This document shows positions 7,085 to 57,233 of a stretch of 57,515 bases of DNA, piece by piece (positions within the stretch are counted from its first letter, which is position 1; each line of letters begins with the position of its first letter). The stretch is from Oscillospiraceae bacterium. Lineage in GTDB: Bacteria > Bacillota > Clostridia > Oscillospirales > Oscillospiraceae. Below the pieces are notes generated by a model, which worked only from the letters and a program-made list of their open reading frames with translations, was not told where the DNA came from and did not search any database. Where the stretch lies: the NCBI GenBank assembly GCA_017632775.1, contig JAGBQR010000017.1, positions 1 to 57,515 of the forward strand, read 5' to 3'. Position numbers and translations under genes: made by a program.

Positions 7085-8578
7085 ATGCCGATGAAAAGAT
7101 TTCTTCCGGGCATCCTTCTCTGCCTGCTTCTCTTTCTGACCGCCTGCGGAAAAACCGCGGCACCCTCAGAGCAGACAAACACTCCCCTCCCCGTCATAGA
7201 GTCACCTGCACCAACACCGATGGTCGTCCCACCCACACCAGAGCCTGTAATCGTCACCCTGCATCGTTCTGACGGAACTGCACTGGAGCTGCCTGAGGAA
7301 GCGTCAGAGGTCTCTCTGGACGATACAGCCCTTTTTGACGGGCTGATTTCTGCCTCTGTCATACTGAAGGATATCCGTCAGATCACGCTGGCAGACGGGC
7401 TTGGTTTTACCTCTGAAGATGTCAACGCACTGCAGACTGCCTACCCTGAAGCGGATATTCTCTATCATGTCATCATAAATGGACGTGAGATCGACAGAAG
7501 CTTTACTGTGCTGGATCTGAGTGATCTCACATCTCCATATGCGGCAGATGCGGCCCGTGAACTGAAAAAGCTTCCCGTGCTTGAACGCGTTACCTTCACA
7601 TCACTCGGCTCTTTCACTCAGGATCCCGAAAGGATCGCCGAATCGAAGAGCGGCATGGTTTTTCCGAATGTTCTGACGCCGGACGATATATATCTTCTCA
7701 AGTCCGCGCGGCCTGACGTCGTATTCGACTGCCCGTTCCTGCTGTATGGGAAAAAGGTATCCACTGCTGATGAACGACTTGAATATGTGGAAACGAACAT
7801 TTCCGATGAGGGTGTTGATTCCGTCCTTCGTCTGATCCTTCCCGCCATGGGTGAACTGAAATATCTCAAACTGGATAAATGTGAGGTATCCAGTCCTGTC
7901 ATGGCCCGACTGCGCGAAGATTATCCCGACATCAAGATCGTCTGGCGTGTCTATTTCAGCAGTTACGGAGAAACCGCTGACGGCACCATGGCGGTTTACA
8001 ACTGCCTGACTGATACGGAAAAAATCTGGGCTACCGGCTGTGTAACAGATAATTTTGCCAAAGAGCTGCAGTACTGTACCGACGTAAAATATCTGGACCT
8101 CGGCCACAACTGCATCACCAACATCGAATTCTGCCGTTACATGCCTAAGCTGGAGGTCGCCGTGCTGTCTGTCAGCTGGGTAGAAAGTCTTGAACCGCTG
8201 GCCTTCTGTCCGAACCTGGAATATCTGGAGTGTTTCTCTTCTCATGTCACGGACATCTCTCCCCTGGCTGCCTGCACAAACCTGCGCTACTTGAATATCA
8301 GCAATCTTCCTTCCGTAAAGGATATCACACCGCTCTATGGTCTGGACCTGACCCGTTTTTACTGCACCATGAGCCACATCCCGGCTGATCAGCAGGCCGA
8401 ATATCAGGCCAGGCACCCGGAGTGCGACTGTGAGTTCGGCTGGGTGGATCCCTCCAAAGGCTACTGGCGTTTTCTGGACGGGAATTACATGAATACCGAC
8501 CCTTCCAACCGAAATGAGCGATATGCTCTGCTTTTCGAGCAATTTGGATACGATTCTACAGCAAACCAGTCGAAATAA
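7085..8578 (+). CDS. Leucine-rich-repeat lipoprotein (1)
   Basis: The start at 7085 is chosen because GGAGG precedes it and it gives a proper lipoprotein signal: MPMKRF, a hydrophobic stretch and the lipobox LTAC; an in-frame start upstream would bury the signal. The mature protein (about 475 residues after the Cys) has a Pro/Thr linker, an alpha/beta region with regularly spaced hydrophobic strands, and four or so irregular leucine-rich repeats near the C-terminus (YLDLGHN, LEVAVLSV, LEYLECFSS, LRYLNIS). It should be tethered to the outer face of the membrane and act in binding; no enzyme motif is seen. A clear paralogue, sharing blocks such as YNCLTDTEKIWATG, is encoded at 44546-46006, also beside a NAGPA-type gene. 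A strong terminator follows. Confidence 0.88.
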   Translation: MPMKRFLPGILLCLLLFLTACGKTAAPSEQTNTPLPVIESPAPTPMVVPPTPEPVIVTLHRSDGTALELPEEASEVSLDDTALFDGLISASVILKDIRQITLADGLGFTSEDVNALQTAYPEADILYHVIINGREIDRSFTVLDLSDLTSPYAADAARELKKLPVLERVTFTSLGSFTQDPERIAESKSGMVFPNVLTPDDIYLLKSARPDVVFDCPFLLYGKKVSTADERLEYVETNISDEGVDSVLRLILPAMGELKYLKLDKCEVSSPVMARLREDYPDIKIVWRVYFSSYGETADGTMAVYNCLTDTEKIWATGCVTDNFAKELQYCTDVKYLDLGHNCITNIEFCRYMPKLEVAVLSVSWVESLEPLAFCPNLEYLECFSSHVTDISPLAACTNLRYLNISNLPSVKDITPLYGLDLTRFYCTMSHIPADQQAEYQARHPECDCEFGWVDPSKGYWRFLDGNYMNTDPSNRNERYALLFEQFGYDSTANQSK

Positions 8579-8582
8579 CGAT

Positions 8583-8621
8583 AAGACAGCGCCGAATATT
8601 TCAATCGGCGCTGTCTTTTTT
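8583..8621 (+). terminator. Rho-independent terminator after the envelope locus
   Basis: A perfect 13-bp stem (AAGACAGCGCCGA paired with its complement) with a 9-base loop is followed by a T-run. It starts five bases after the lipoprotein stop and ends the plus-strand operon. Confidence 0.92.
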
Positions 8622-8630
8622 CCTCTGAGG

Positions 8631-8674
8631 GAAAAAAGAAAAATCCCCGCAGCCGGATACGGCTGCGGGGATTT
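8631..8674 (-). terminator. Rho-independent terminator of nifJ
   Basis: A 14-bp perfect stem (AAATCCCCGCAGCC and its complement, 8641-8654 and 8661-8674) with a 6-base loop. Read on the minus strand it is followed by TTTTTCTTTTTTC. It lies about 30 bases after the nifJ stop. Confidence 0.9.
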
Positions 8675-52656: not shown

Positions 52657-52685
52657 TTGAAGTTTCCATGCTCCGGTGCTATAAT
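52657..52685 (+). promoter_or_regulatory. Promoter of the ACP-oxoamine synthase operon
   Basis: TTGAAG (52657-52662), 17 bases, perfect TATAAT (52680-52685), about 30 bases before the start codon. Confidence 0.75.
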
Positions 52686-52718
52686 ACCGCCATACTGAAA
52701 ATGAAAGGAACATGACCT

Positions 52719-54245
52719 ATGGCTGCAAACGGCAATCCACAGGCCTCTCTCTCCGAAATACTTGAGAAGGTCCATGCGATCTTTGCAGAGGAACTACAGC
52801 TTGACCCCTCTGCATTCAGCAACGATGACGATCTTTCCACCGGGCTTGGACTGGACAGTCTTGCCATCTACAGTGCCATCACCGAAATCGAAGACGCTTA
52901 CCAGATCGTTCTGAATGACTCGGATATCTCCGGGATCTCGACGATCAGCGGACTCGCTCAGCTTGTTTTTGACCGCATAAACGGATTCGTTTCCTCTCTT
53001 TCTTCCGAAGCGGACACCCAGGAACGGGAATATCACCGCCTGACTGATTTTGCCGAAAGTCCGGAGTATCTCGGCCTCAGGCAGAGAATGGCCGAGACGT
53101 TCCCGGAGGGCTTCAATCCCTACTTTGTTCCTCATGACAGTCTGATCCGGGACACCAGCGTGGTAAACGGAAAAGAAGTCATCAACCTCGGTTCCTACAA
53201 CTATCTGGGCATGTCCGGTCATCCGGAAACGATGCAGGCCGCGATCGATGCTATCCGTAAATACGGCACTTCAGCCAGCGGCAGCCGGACGCTCGCCGGT
53301 GAGAAAACACTTTACCAGCAGCTGGAAAAAGCGATCGCCGACTGGAAACACACGGAAGACGCCATCGTATGCACCGGCGGCTGGGCAACAAACCTTACCT
53401 TCCTCAGCAGCTTCATGCATGACGGAGACTTCATTGTCTATGATGCCCTGTCCCACAATTCCATTGCGGAAGGCGTGGCTCTGTCCAGGGCTGAAAGCAA
53501 GGCTTTCCCGCATAACGATCTTCAGACGCTGGAAAACATTCTGCATAAAGTACAGGATAAATACAACAAAGTGCTGATCGTGGTGGAAGGCGTTTACAGT
53601 ATGGACGGCGATATTGCACCGATCCCCGAATTTGTCCGCCTGAAAAAAGCCTACAAGTGCTTCCTCATGGTCGATGAGGCACACTCGGGCGGCGTGATCG
53701 GTGATCATGCCGGCGGCTGCGACGATTATTTCCATCTTGATCCGCATGACATCGACATCAAATACGGGACCCTCTCCAAAGCGCTCGGAACCTGCGGCGG
53801 GTACATTGCCGCCGATAAGGAGATCGTGGAATACCTCCGGTATTTTATGAGCGGCTTTGTTTTCTCCGCAGGAATCTCTCCTCCGCTTGCCGCCGCCTGC
53901 ATGAAGGCCATTGAGATCATCCGCCGTGACAACAGCGCCGCGACAAAGCTTCATGAGAACATCCGTTATTTTGTGCGCCGCTGCAAGGAAGAAGGCATGA
54001 ACACCTGTCTGGCCGGAGAAAGCGCCGTTGTCCCCGTCCTGATCGGCTCGGATCAGGACGCCGCGCGTCTTTCCGCGGAACTGCTCGATGAAGGCGTCTT
54101 CGTCCCGCCGGCCATGTATCCGGCCGTACCCATCGGAGAAAGCCGTCTCCGCTTCACGATCTCCGCCACCCACAGCATCGAACAGCTGGAAAAGGCCGTC
54201 TCTTCCCTGGCCAAACTCATGCATGAGGAAGGATTCCTGAAATGA
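52719..54245 (+). CDS. Acyl carrier protein fused to an alpha-oxoamine synthase (serine palmitoyltransferase/AONS-like)
   Basis: The 508-residue protein combines two activities. Residues about 10-85 are an acyl carrier protein with the phosphopantetheine Ser47 in GLGLDSLA. Residues about 105-505 are a fold type I PLP enzyme of the alpha-oxoamine synthase family: LNSYNYLG-type LGSYNYLGM, SGSRTLAGE, DALSHNS, DEAHSGG (Asp319, His322) and the Schiff-base Lys354 in YGTLSKALGTCGG. Such enzymes join an acyl thioester with an amino acid and release CO2, as in serine palmitoyltransferase, AONS and 5-aminolevulinate synthase. The fused carrier should deliver the acyl chain. The SDR gene overlapping by four bases could reduce the 3-keto product. 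The amino acid used is unknown. Confidence 0.88.
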   Translation: MAANGNPQASLSEILEKVHAIFAEELQLDPSAFSNDDDLSTGLGLDSLAIYSAITEIEDAYQIVLNDSDISGISTISGLAQLVFDRINGFVSSLSSEADTQEREYHRLTDFAESPEYLGLRQRMAETFPEGFNPYFVPHDSLIRDTSVVNGKEVINLGSYNYLGMSGHPETMQAAIDAIRKYGTSASGSRTLAGEKTLYQQLEKAIADWKHTEDAIVCTGGWATNLTFLSSFMHDGDFIVYDALSHNSIAEGVALSRAESKAFPHNDLQTLENILHKVQDKYNKVLIVVEGVYSMDGDIAPIPEFVRLKKAYKCFLMVDEAHSGGVIGDHAGGCDDYFHLDPHDIDIKYGTLSKALGTCGGYIAADKEIVEYLRYFMSGFVFSAGISPPLAAACMKAIEIIRRDNSAATKLHENIRYFVRRCKEEGMNTCLAGESAVVPVLIGSDQDAARLSAELLDEGVFVPPAMYPAVPIGESRLRFTISATHSIEQLEKAVSSLAKLMHEEGFLK

Positions 54246-55027
54246 AAGCAGTTGCCATTGTGACCGGTGCCAGTTCCGGGATCGGCCTTGCCGTTTCAAA
54301 GCAGCTCCTCTCACGGGGATACACGGTGTACGGTCTCTCCCGACGGGGAACTTCCGCCGAGGGTGTCATCCCGCTGGCTGCGGAGATCACCGATGAGGAT
54401 GCCGTAAAGGCTGCCATCGATTCGGTTTTCGAGAAGGAAGGGCGTATCGATCTTCTGATCAACAATGCCGGCATGGGAATCTCCGGACCTGTGGAGTTTA
54501 CAGAAACGGAAGACATGAAGCGGATCATGGACGTCAACTTCTACGGCCAGGTCTACTGTGCAAAAGCCGTTCTCCCGCATATGCGGGCTCAGGGCAGCGG
54601 GCGGATCGTCTGTACAAGTTCCGTCGCGGCTCCGATCGCCATCCCATACCAGGCTTTTTATTCCACCAGCAAGGCGTCTGTAAGTGCCATGGCGCTTGCC
54701 CTTCGGAATGAAGTAAAGCCTTTCGGCATTGATGTGTGCGCCGTCATGCCCGGCGACGCCAGCACCGGCTTCACGGATGCCCGGAAAAAGCAGTCCGCCG
54801 GTGATGCGATCTATACGCATAATCAGTCTGCAGTAGCCGCCATGGAGAAAGATGAACGCGGCGGGATGACCCCGGATGATGTCGCCGCGGTGATCGTAAA
54901 AGCCGCCACCGTGAAAAATCCCAAGCCTCTTTTCACTGCCGGTGCCAAATACAAGGTTTTCGTCGTTCTCTTCAAGATCCTGCCTTATCGTCTTGCTTAC
55001 TGGATCGTTGGGAAAATGTACAGCTGA
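54242..55027 (+). CDS. Short-chain dehydrogenase/reductase, 3-ketosphinganine reductase-like
   Basis: The 261-residue classical SDR shows the cofactor loop TGASSGIG (8-15), LSRRG after the second strand, which favours NADPH, NNAGMG, and the active-site YxxxK at Tyr140-Lys144 (FYSTSKAS) with Ser127 region SSVAAP. A C-terminal hydrophobic stretch (KVFVVLFKILPYRLAYWIVGK) may hold it to the membrane. It starts within the stop codon of the oxoamine synthase gene, so the two are co-translated. That context makes reduction of a 3-keto amine to an amino alcohol the most likely role. Confidence 0.88.
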   Translation: MKAVAIVTGASSGIGLAVSKQLLSRGYTVYGLSRRGTSAEGVIPLAAEITDEDAVKAAIDSVFEKEGRIDLLINNAGMGISGPVEFTETEDMKRIMDVNFYGQVYCAKAVLPHMRAQGSGRIVCTSSVAAPIAIPYQAFYSTSKASVSAMALALRNEVKPFGIDVCAVMPGDASTGFTDARKKQSAGDAIYTHNQSAVAAMEKDERGGMTPDDVAAVIVKAATVKNPKPLFTAGAKYKVFVVLFKILPYRLAYWIVGKMYS

Positions 55028-55031
55028 ACAG

Positions 55032-55059
55032 AAAAAACCGCCCAAACGGGCGGTTTTTT
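55032..55059. terminator. Bidirectional terminator between SDR and aldo/keto reductase genes
   Basis: A 12-bp perfect stem (AAAAAACCGCCC with its complement) with an AAAC loop works for both the SDR transcript and the minus-strand aldo/keto reductase, whose stop is 16 bases away. Confidence 0.93.
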
Positions 55060-55074
55060 GTTTGTAAAAACGAT

Positions 55075-56088
55075 TCAGAACGGTCTCTCGTCGGAGGTGA
55101 GTTCGATCCAGTCGCACTCTGCCTTGCTGAGTTTGATCTCCAGTGTGGAAAGCGTCGACATCAGTTCTTCATGGTTCCTCGCTCCGATGATCGGCATCAC
55201 ATCGAGGTCTCCGGACATCGTATACGCCATGCAGATCTGCGGTACCGTGAGCCCTTTGGCTTTTGCCAGCTCCGCTGCGCGCTCCATGCGCGTGAAGTTA
55301 TCGGGGTAGCAGTAACCGACTTTCAGGCCGCCGGGAATGCTGTCCGGATCCTTTTCAAACTGCTCGCGTGTGAAGCGGCCGGTGCAGAAGCCGCCCGAAA
55401 GTGCGGAATAGGACGCACAGGAGATGCCCTCTCCCGCCAGATACCTGATCGCTTCCTTATACTTCGGTCCGGAGAGCGAACCGCTGCCCATCATAAAGGG
55501 ATCGCCCACCATCTCCGCGAGAGAATAATGCTCCTCCACAATGCCGAAGCCCTGCAGACCATGCGCTGCCGCATAGTCATTGGCTTCCTTGATGCGGTCC
55601 GCCTGCCAGTTCGCCGCGCCGAACACCTTTACCAGACCCTGTTTTTTGAACTTGTTCAGGGTCTCGATGATCTCGGCGACCGTAGTGCCCGGATCGTCGC
55701 GGTGCAGATAAAACACATCGATATAATCCGTATGCCATCTGGTCAGAGAGTCATGCAGCTCCGACTCCATATCGTAGGAGTGGACCGTGGTCCTGAACAG
55801 GAAGGGTTTCATGTCGAAATAGCGGGGATGGGCACACTTGGTGGTCAGGATAAAATCCTCCCGCTTGATGCCCCTGTCTCTCCACCATTTGCCGAGGGCG
55901 ATCTCCGTGGAACCCAAGCGCGGGTAACCGTAGCTGTGGGCTGCATCAAGTGCGTTTACTCCCTGTTCCCACATGTCGTCCAGGATCTTGAAATTTTCTT
56001 CCGGACCGTTCGGATCCGTGATGAATGCGGTTCCCATGATGAAGCGGCTGCATTTTTTTTCAAGGCCTTTGATTTTGGTATACTCCAT
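55075..56088 (-). CDS. Aldo/keto reductase (1)
   Basis: The 337-residue TIM-barrel NADPH-dependent reductase has the catalytic elements DAAHSYGYPRLGSTEIALGKWW (Asp, Tyr), ILTTKCAHPR (His region with the family's Lys in TTKC), YIDVFYLHRDD, GAANWQADRI, and the cofactor-binding PIIGARNHEEL near the end. It acts on carbonyl compounds; the substrate is unknown. Its sequence is very close to the tandem copy at 56220. An ATAAGGAG site precedes the ATG. Confidence 0.93.
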   Translation of the reverse strand: MEYTKIKGLEKKCSRFIMGTAFITDPNGPEENFKILDDMWEQGVNALDAAHSYGYPRLGSTEIALGKWWRDRGIKREDFILTTKCAHPRYFDMKPFLFRTTVHSYDMESELHDSLTRWHTDYIDVFYLHRDDPGTTVAEIIETLNKFKKQGLVKVFGAANWQADRIKEANDYAAAHGLQGFGIVEEHYSLAEMVGDPFMMGSGSLSGPKYKEAIRYLAGEGISCASYSALSGGFCTGRFTREQFEKDPDSIPGGLKVGYCYPDNFTRMERAAELAKAKGLTVPQICMAYTMSGDLDVMPIIGARNHEELMSTLSTLEIKLSKAECDWIELTSDERPF

Positions 56089-56219: not shown

Positions 56220-57233
56220 TCAGAAGGGTTTTTCGTCAGAGGTGAGATCGATCCAGTCGCACTCCGCCTTGCTGAGTCTGATCTCCATCGTGGAGAGCGT
56301 GGACATCAGCTCCTCATGGTTCCGTGCGCCGATGATCGGCATCACATCCAGTTCACCGGACATCGTGTACGCCATGCAGACCTGCGGTACCGTGAGTCCC
56401 TTGGCCGCGGCCAGCTCCGTGGCGCGCTCGAGGCGCGTGAAGTTGTCGGGATAGCAGTAGCCGATCTTCAGGTTTCCGGGAACACTGTCCGGATCCTTCT
56501 CGAACTGCTCGCGGGTGACGCGGCCGGTGCAGAAGCCGCCGGAAAGAGCCGAATAGGAGGCGCAGGAAATGCCCTGCCCGACCAGATAGTTGATTGCTTC
56601 CTTATACTTCGGGCCGGAGAGAGAGCCGCTGCCCTGCATAAAGGGATCTCCCACCATCTCTGCCAGAGAGTAGTGCTCTTCCACGATGCCGAAGCCCTGC
56701 AGACCATGCGCCTCCGCATAGTCGTTGGCTTCCTTGATGCGGTCGACCTGCCAGTTGGCAGCGCCGAACACCTTTACCAGACCCTGTTTTTTGAACTTGT
56801 TCAGGGTCTCGATGATCTCGGCGACCGTTGTATTCGGATCGTCCCGGTGCAGATACAGCACGTCGACATAGTCCGTATGCCACTTGGTCAGCGAGTCATG
56901 CAGTTCCGACTCCATATCGTAGGAGTGGACCGCCGTTCTCTGCAGGAAGGGCTTCATATCGAAATAACGGGGATGGGCGCACTTCGTGGTGATGACCATG
57001 TCCTCGCGGTTGATGCCTCTGTCTCTCCACCATTTGCCGAGAGCGATCTCGGTGGAGCCGATGCGCGGGAAACCGTAGCTGTGTGCCGCGTCGATGACGT
57101 TGACACCCTGCTCCCAGGCATCGTCGAGCTTTTTGTACTCTTCTTCGGGGCCGTTGGGGTCGCTGATGGTCATCGTGCCGATGATAAAGCGGCTGCATTT
57201 CTTGTCCAGGCCTTTGATTTTGGTGTATTCCAT
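56220..57233 (-). CDS. Aldo/keto reductase (2)
   Basis: This 337-residue protein has the same length and motifs as the copy downstream: DAAHSYGFPRIGSTEIALGKWW, VITTKCAHPR, YVDVLYLHRDD, GAANWQVDRI and PIIGARNHEEL. By eye the two differ at roughly one residue in ten, and the DNA is similar too, so this is a recent tandem duplication. The intergenic region contains a terminator and a separate promoter, so each copy is its own unit. AAGGGAG precedes its ATG. Confidence 0.93.
   Translation of the reverse strand: MEYTKIKGLDKKCSRFIIGTMTISDPNGPEEEYKKLDDAWEQGVNVIDAAHSYGFPRIGSTEIALGKWWRDRGINREDMVITTKCAHPRYFDMKPFLQRTAVHSYDMESELHDSLTKWHTDYVDVLYLHRDDPNTTVAEIIETLNKFKKQGLVKVFGAANWQVDRIKEANDYAEAHGLQGFGIVEEHYSLAEMVGDPFMQGSGSLSGPKYKEAINYLVGQGISCASYSALSGGFCTGRVTREQFEKDPDSVPGNLKIGYCYPDNFTRLERATELAAAKGLTVPQVCMAYTMSGELDVMPIIGARNHEELMSTLSTMEIRLSKAECDWIDLTSDEKPF

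Follow-up and report, generated by a model that had tools for sequence, protein, structure and literature searches.

A carrier-fused alpha-oxoamine synthase and its paired reductase in an Oscillospiraceae bacterium: a probable route to sphinganine-like bases

What does a two-gene unit make that joins an acyl carrier protein (ACP) domain to an alpha-oxoamine synthase (AOS) in one chain, and pairs this fusion with a short-chain dehydrogenase/reductase (SDR)? The unit is found in an Oscillospiraceae bacterium, on contig JAGBQR010000017.1 of assembly GCA_017632775.1, whose 57,515 nucleotides are called the window here. We consider it moderately likely that the fusion protein is a carrier-fused, probably serine-using AOS, and that it makes a sphinganine-like base together with the SDR as the 3-keto reductase. 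The acyl chain, the use of serine, the reduction of the ketone and the final lipid are predicted from the sequence. The original prediction for this locus had proposed the general chemistry, condensation of an acyl thioester with an amino acid followed by ketone reduction. This is the chemistry that the data support best, and the 3-hydroxy-2-amino lipid that was suggested as the product is still conjectural. What emerges beyond that prediction is that in most full-length relatives an acyl ligase is fused to the protein, and that the family is patchy.

The Pfam domains agree with the predicted arrangement of an ACP domain, with Ser47 as the phosphopantetheine site, in front of a complete AOS. 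The AOS is a fold type I pyridoxal 5'-phosphate (PLP) domain with the His-Asp-His-Lys-Arg active site of the superfamily, and the phosphopantetheine domain that directly precedes it places the protein in the carrier-AOS fusion class (CP-PLP2, PMC3870968). Ser47, Asp319, His322 and Lys354 are invariant across 11 aligned rows, window included. For a wider comparison we used the numbering of the Sphingobacterium serine palmitoyltransferase (SmSPT), anchored on the PLP lysine, which we take to be residue 244. The window matches SmSPT at the positions of His138, Asp210, His213, Lys244, Arg367 and Ser81, and differs from it by a Tyr at Asn52, a Val at Met271 and a Gly at Ser275. The two open reading frames (ORFs) overlap by 4 bp (ATGA, 54242-54245) and the YxxxK motif of the SDR is intact (YSTSK, residues 140-144), both as predicted; the motifs TGASSGIG (from residue 8) and NNAG (residue 74) are present as well.

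To examine the affiliation of the AOS, we built a tree from 37 AOS domains. It goes back to an earlier one of 35 rows, from which the long rows of Streptomyces clavuligerus, Streptomyces NBC_00209 and Burkholderia glumae were dropped and to which five rows were added; the partial AOS of locus L019 was excluded (G and L are our labels for genomes and loci). The 15 full-length ACP-AOS and ligase-ACP-AOS rows form one clade (support 100/98). This clade is sister to, and not nested in, a group of eight AOSs linked to polyketide synthases (PKSs). The joint clade of 23 rows, again with support 100/98, lies apart from the BioF, Kbl, ALAS and classical serine palmitoyltransferase (SPT) rows, in a tree with long outgroup branches and a weakly placed deep order. 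A synthase-domain tree had been proposed with the original prediction; it separates the window AOS from the SPT, BioF and Kbl rows and places it beside PKS-linked AOSs instead. Tyr at the Asn52 position and Gly at the Ser275 position occur in all 23 rows of the joint clade and in 0 of the 14 others. An N-terminal stretch resembling ...EY...NPYF..HD is common to most of the 23 rows, as judged by eye.

The eight PKS-linked rows come from Planktothrix, a clostridial PKS locus, Sinorhizobium, Shinella, Pseudomonas, Paraburkholderia, Caballeronia and Streptomyces. Their PKS context rests on the annotation of the records or on Pfam, except at the clostridial and Sinorhizobium loci, where the ORFs were read by eye. 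Inspection of the ORFs next to the window gene revealed no PKS. The FabF model, which also detects PKS ketosynthases (for example in G052), finds nothing at E <= 0.001 in the window's own genome, G000, which is 65% complete. Membership in a clade shared with PKS-linked AOSs, with no PKS seen, therefore makes the window AOS a relative of these enzymes without a PKS.

This placement bears on the amino acid substrate. In Pseudomonas fluorescens MYb115, a PKS cluster encodes the AOS PfSgaB, which has been shown to convert acyl-CoA and L-serine to 3-ketodihydrosphinganines, with virtually no use of alanine or glycine; the cluster also includes a KDSR-like SDR (PMC12134224). PKS, AOS, SDR and LTA-synthase-family genes occur together in a cluster on a Pseudomonas plasmid, which resembles the PfSgaB cluster in gene content and whose AOS is one of the eight rows. 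Because of this resemblance, we infer that PfSgaB itself belongs to the PKS-linked group. BioF uses alanine, and Kbl and ALAS use glycine. If the window AOS also took alanine, glycine or another amino acid, the same condensation would lead to an amino ketone or amino alcohol of the 1-deoxy or another type. The exchanges at Asn52, Met271 and Ser275 and the Ala that 3 of 15 rows of the family have in place of Ser81 would fit this idea, and so would the example of SulA, a related AOS that acts as a cysteate acyl-ACP transferase and is reported to prefer acyl-ACP over acyl-CoA (PMC9304779). However, the window keeps Ser81, which is Val in the Kbl row and Thr in the ALAS row. It also lacks the hallmark lysine of SulA, having Ala at the position aligned with SmSPT Ala274 and SulA Lys281 (in the Lys251/Lys244 register). 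As the family is moreover the sister group of the kind of AOS in which PfSgaB is described as serine-specific (PMC12134224), a different amino acid appears unlikely, and serine remains the more likely substrate.

Ranking by model scores alone would have suggested an enzyme of biotin synthesis (BioF) or threonine breakdown (Kbl). The top NCBIfam model by bits is bioF (TIGR00858), with 361 bits for a cut-off of 426, and the models for Kbl (glycine C-acetyltransferase) follow, with 333 and 282 bits for cut-offs of 460 and 493. All these scores are below the cut-offs, the tree keeps the window AOS apart from the rows of BioF and Kbl, and in kin a FadD-like ligase is fused to the AOS. Grouping with BioF beside bioABD genes, which the original prediction had named in advance as evidence against itself, was looked for and not seen: bioB is over cut-off in 1 of 17 genomes, which is not G000, and there is no biotin gene among the annotated window neighbours. 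A role in biotin or threonine metabolism was rejected on the basis of the tree, the model cut-offs and the bioB search, and is barely credible.

The SDR fits the preferred reading, sphinganine-like base formation. Among 223 NCBIfam families, its best model is KdsR (3-ketodihydrosphingosine reductase, NF049977), with 232.8 bits. KdsR is also the best model for all eight AOS-adjacent SDRs that were ranked (window, L009-L013, L016, L019; 215-237 bits for a cut-off of 400; the L014 SDR, cut by the contig end, is left out), but two unlinked SDRs of these loci both rank another model first. A scan of genome contigs with a pattern that detects close relatives only yielded 11 loci, with 64-84% identity, and in eight of these the SDR follows the fusion gene.

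Two domain layouts are found among the relatives. An AMP-binding acyl ligase, ACP and AOS are joined in one chain of 1041-1077 residues in 9 of the 12 full-length relatives (L012-L018, G065 and G144; Pfam run on L012 only). The window and three relatives (L009, L010, L011) have ACP and AOS without ligase. The same two-domain layout is found in two genomes from a different family within the phylum, G575 (run through Pfam) and G869. In these two genomes, a gene for a CDP-alcohol phosphatidyltransferase is located just upstream of the ACP-AOS gene (L041 8491-9060, L042 8459-9046), possibly for a head-group step, and in L013 a similar-looking gene was noticed by eye a few kb downstream (8141-8653). 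Compared across the window and its 12 full-length close relatives, identity is 68-98% for the AOS domains and 25-90% for the ACPs; the nine fused ligases are 40-93% identical to one another. A swap of the ACP domain was considered and dropped, because the ACPs diverge quickly throughout the family; the nine three-domain rows have ACPs of 27-72% identity next to AOS domains of 68-98%. The TSGTTG motif is present in 9 of 9 fused ligases, and the GFGMTE and C-terminal lysine motifs, found by pattern, in eight. The L012 ligase is FadD-like: its best PDB match is FadD13, and its best ligase model is PRK06187 (120 bits for a cut-off of 476). It is not of the AasR type, that is, not a fatty acyl-AMP ligase (FAAL) by its model matches, whereas AasR of E. 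coli BL21 matches the FAAL model with 870 bits for a cut-off of 600.

In the proposed pathway, a phosphopantetheinyl transferase would first equip Ser47 with its arm. Loading of this arm with a fatty acyl chain would follow, presumably by the fused ligase in the nine relatives that have one, and by a factor acting in trans in the case of the window. The PLP domain would condense the acyl group and an amino acid, for which L-serine is the most likely candidate, with loss of CO2 and formation of a 3-keto sphingoid base. Reduction of the ketone by the SDR would yield a sphinganine-like 2-amino-1,3-diol.

Could the window copy instead be a decayed remnant of a three-domain enzyme, which lost its function with the ligase? 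The ligase is absent from the window and three kin, and a search with the L012 ligase at E <= 1e-10 finds nothing in two of the kin genomes (G150, G151). Yet the dN/dS ratio of the ACP-AOS gene is about 0.06 and the catalytic residues are kept, the gene pair is retained in the window and the three kin, and two domains are also all that is found in G575 and G869. Moreover, a single clade of the three-domain rows is not rejected by the AU topology test (p 0.221), so that the ligase may have been either gained or lost. Decay is thus very unlikely.

How the window ACP would be loaded is less clear. By Pfam, a phosphopantetheinyl transferase is present in 10 of 17 genomes, but in 0 of the 4 genomes of the window's group that have the two-domain layout (G000, G150, G151, G152). 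A protein query detects one in G151 and G152, hence in two of the four. With the L012 ligase as query (E <= 1e-10), there is one partial match in G000 and there are four matches in G152; G150, G151 and the same-genus genomes G004 and G109 have none. Pfam AMP-binding matches occur in 15 of the 17 genomes, with no specific partner singled out, and are absent from G575 and G869. If the proteins of these two genomes work, a ligase is therefore not the sole loading route. In G152 (contig 22, L093 5211-9891), a gene for a 644-residue ligase-ACP protein is followed by two PlsC-like acyltransferase genes, identified by eye, and a second ligase gene; this group is possibly an acyl-ACP route for lipids.

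FabF is over cut-off in 1 of 15 carriers of the family (G869, which is 6% contaminated) and in neither of two same-genus non-carriers, with weaker matches in six more genomes. In the window's taxonomic family, FabF is over cut-off in 59 of 120 genomes and gives some match at E <= 0.001 in 84 of 120. The difference between carriers and family has a Fisher p of 0.0016 if the genomes, which are related, are treated as independent. This suggests that the carriers live without ordinary type II fatty acid synthesis, as far as FabF in related and partly incomplete genomes can tell. A more far-reaching model, which we put forward tentatively and as doubtful, is that several distantly related gut Clostridia, in which type II fatty acid synthesis seems to be lacking, take up fatty acids by scavenging and turn them into sphingoid bases with a single ligase-ACP-SPT chain, that the window lineage uses an ACP-SPT loaded in trans, and that this amounts to a Bacteroidota-independent source of sphingolipids in the ruminant gut.

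A different kind of product must also be considered. The pair may make the precursor of a small specialised metabolite (a pigment, a signal, or a product like those of PKSs or non-ribosomal peptide synthetases (NRPSs)) rather than a membrane-type lipid. PigH, a CP-CP-AOS protein, is described as acting in pigment biosynthesis (PMC3870968). In G928, a ligase-ACP-AOS gene with its SDR is located about 8 kb after a gene for a 2211-residue NRPS on the same strand, and the stretch separating the two holds ABC transporter genes and a match to a phosphopantetheinyl transferase. Thioesterase-like and adenylation genes also precede the fusion on this strand (contig 34; L092 3313-13594, L016 6378-10321), and all of these genes may form a single biosynthetic cluster. 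In the eight remaining carriers of the three-domain layout, however, no AMP-binding frame on the contig of the fusion is longer than the fusion, though these contigs are short, and the Pfam-annotated neighbours in the window look like housekeeping genes. For the window we thus regard a specialised metabolite as quite unlikely, and a sphingoid base as the better guess.

Several results weigh against this guess. The window AOS reaches no NCBIfam cut-off. The three SPT models give 324, 303 and 242 bits for cut-offs of 640, 500 and 670, and bioF ranks above them; the SPT of BL21, taken as a control, passes an SPT model (599 bits, cut-off 500). The variation at Ser81 within the family also belongs here. 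Identity to the PKS-linked AOSs is 38-46%, so that serine use is not assured, and the placement near PfSgaB was deduced from PKS-linked relatives and not from the sequence of PfSgaB. An SPT-like AOS of cyanobacteria was judged in PMC8895605 not to give sphingolipids. The window SDR stays below the KdsR cut-off, KdsR is not first for either of the PKS-cluster SDRs examined, and it leads the general SDR models by only 7-24 bits; for this reason the ranking is support for the reductase type, not proof. By tblastn, no such SDR is found in L015, L017 and L018, or in the examined stretches of G065, G144, G575 and G869. Pfam and the protein query find no phosphopantetheinyl transferase in the 65% complete genome of the window. 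Finally, no N-acyltransferase was recognised among the Pfam-annotated window neighbours; the genome was not searched for one.

The distribution of the family is scattered. Matches are present in 3 of 150 genomes of the window's taxonomic family at E <= 1e-80 (its own, G065, G144), in 6 of 391 genomes of the class at E <= 1e-90 (39-44% identity apart from the window's own), and in 3 of 398 genomes of the phylum at E <= 1e-95 (its own; G575 and G869, 57%). The same-genus genomes G004 and G109 have no match at E <= 1e-80. The loci are labelled Ruminococcaceae/Oscillospiraceae, Lachnospiraceae, Christensenellaceae, Eubacterium and, for one short contig, Eggerthellaceae. Titles of 4 of the 11 pattern-scan loci name goat, sheep or yak gut sites, and the labels RUG and RUI denote rumen genome bins. 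Because it is patchy across the labelled taxa, this Firmicute family may have been horizontally transferred; bin labels can be wrong. The Eggerthellaceae contig (7.9 kb) carries the end of a family AOS and the SDR (L019 2-1329), through either transfer or mis-binning. A phage origin was discarded: one scan of viral contigs yielded 25 loci, all with AOSs of 29-32% identity and none of the window family. An empty site could not be recognised in the same-genus genomes, since the glutamine synthetase III genes of G109 have different surroundings and nothing in G004 matches at E <= 1e-100.

The features of the locus are collected in Table 1. The original prediction had assigned one promoter and one terminator to the pair. 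The terminator is a strong hairpin, with 0 of 200 shuffles folding equally well, and is not among the sites from a consensus terminator scanner. A promoter-like site is present, but two such sites were found in the scanned region for a chance expectation of 2.0 (sd 1.6), so that position alone speaks for it.

Table 1. Coordinates of the two-gene unit and its signals in the window
Feature	Position	Strand	Evidence
ACP-AOS fusion protein, 508 aa	52719..54245	+	ORF and Pfam
Acyl carrier domain, residues 16-83	52764..52967	+	Pfam PF00550 (PP-binding), E 1e-11
Phosphopantetheine Ser47 codon	52857-52859	+	Ser47 in 11/11 aligned rows
AOS domain, residues 153-497, PLP lysine 354	53175..54209	+	Pfam PF00155 (Aminotran_1_2), E 3.8e-59
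SDR, 261 aa	54242..55027	+	Pfam adh_short, E 1.9e-45; NCBIfam ranking
Promoter-like site TTGAAG-17-TATAAT, TG preceding -10	52657..52685	+	10/12 matches
Ribosome-binding-site-like GAAAGGA, 9 nt 5' of ATG	52703..52709	+	Sequence inspection
Intrinsic terminator hairpin	about 55030..55060	+	-20.5 kcal/mol, z -4.72

Both genes look to be under purifying selection. For the window against L009-L011, dN/dS is 0.06-0.07 for ACP-AOS and 0.05-0.11 for the SDR, at dS values (1.3-2.8) that are saturated. The pair is flanked by genes for glutamine synthetase III and an aldo-keto reductase in the window, L010 and L011, and L009 has a partial match to glutamine synthetase III. An MntP-like gene precedes the pair in the window only, not in L009-L011. 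The window has tandem aldo-keto reductase genes (55075-56088 and 56220-57233), with 295 of 337 residues identical. No Rfam family reaches its gathering score between 44000 and 57515.

Bacteroides species are cited as major producers of sphingolipids among the bacteria of the gut (PMC10865984). If the pair works as proposed, some Clostridia would be a further source of sphingolipids in the gut. The compact one-chain ligase-carrier-synthase proteins of the relatives should then be easily expressed and assayed.

The domain layout is not new, because ligase-carrier-AOS and carrier-AOS proteins were already tabulated by genome mining in 2013 (PMC3870968). The A-CP-AOS and CP-AOS proteins listed there, from Microscilla, Blastopirellula, Anabaena and others, have the same layouts. 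The seven AOS rows of that table come from other phyla, with Firmicutes named only for the whole set, and PigH is named as the only member with experiment behind it. A paired KdsR-like SDR is not described in the parts of PMC3870968 that concern these proteins. For the Firmicute ACP-AOS family, no description was recognised among the matches listed in the open-licence PMC literature. SulA differs from the window protein by its specificity for cysteate, its hallmark lysine and its separate ACP (PMC9304779).

Proteobacterial SPTs are reported to rely on a dedicated ACP that receives its acyl chain from a ligase of its own (PMC9386255). In the AasR-AcpR-SPT systems of Caulobacter, E. coli BL21 and Sphingomonas, ligase, ACP and AOS thus serve the synthesis of 3-oxo-sphinganine, as we propose for the window family. 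In contrast to the one-chain arrangement found here, the three components are described there as products of separate genes. The ligases also differ, the FadD-like ligase of the kin having only a 53-residue stretch as its best match to BL21 AasR, and the window AOS, 34% identical to the BL21 SPT, is in another clade. SgaABC of P. fluorescens MYb115 (PMC12134224) is similar to the window system in having an AOS of the kind next to the window family in the tree and an SDR proposed for ketone reduction, and in building on a carrier-bound acyl chain, in its case on a carrier-bearing PKS. Unlike in SgaABC, where the chain is described as coming from an iterative PKS, the AOS of the window is fused to its own ACP, and in most of its kin to a ligase as well, with no PKS. 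If our interpretation holds, it would suggest that a sphinganine synthase of the PKS type can run without a PKS.

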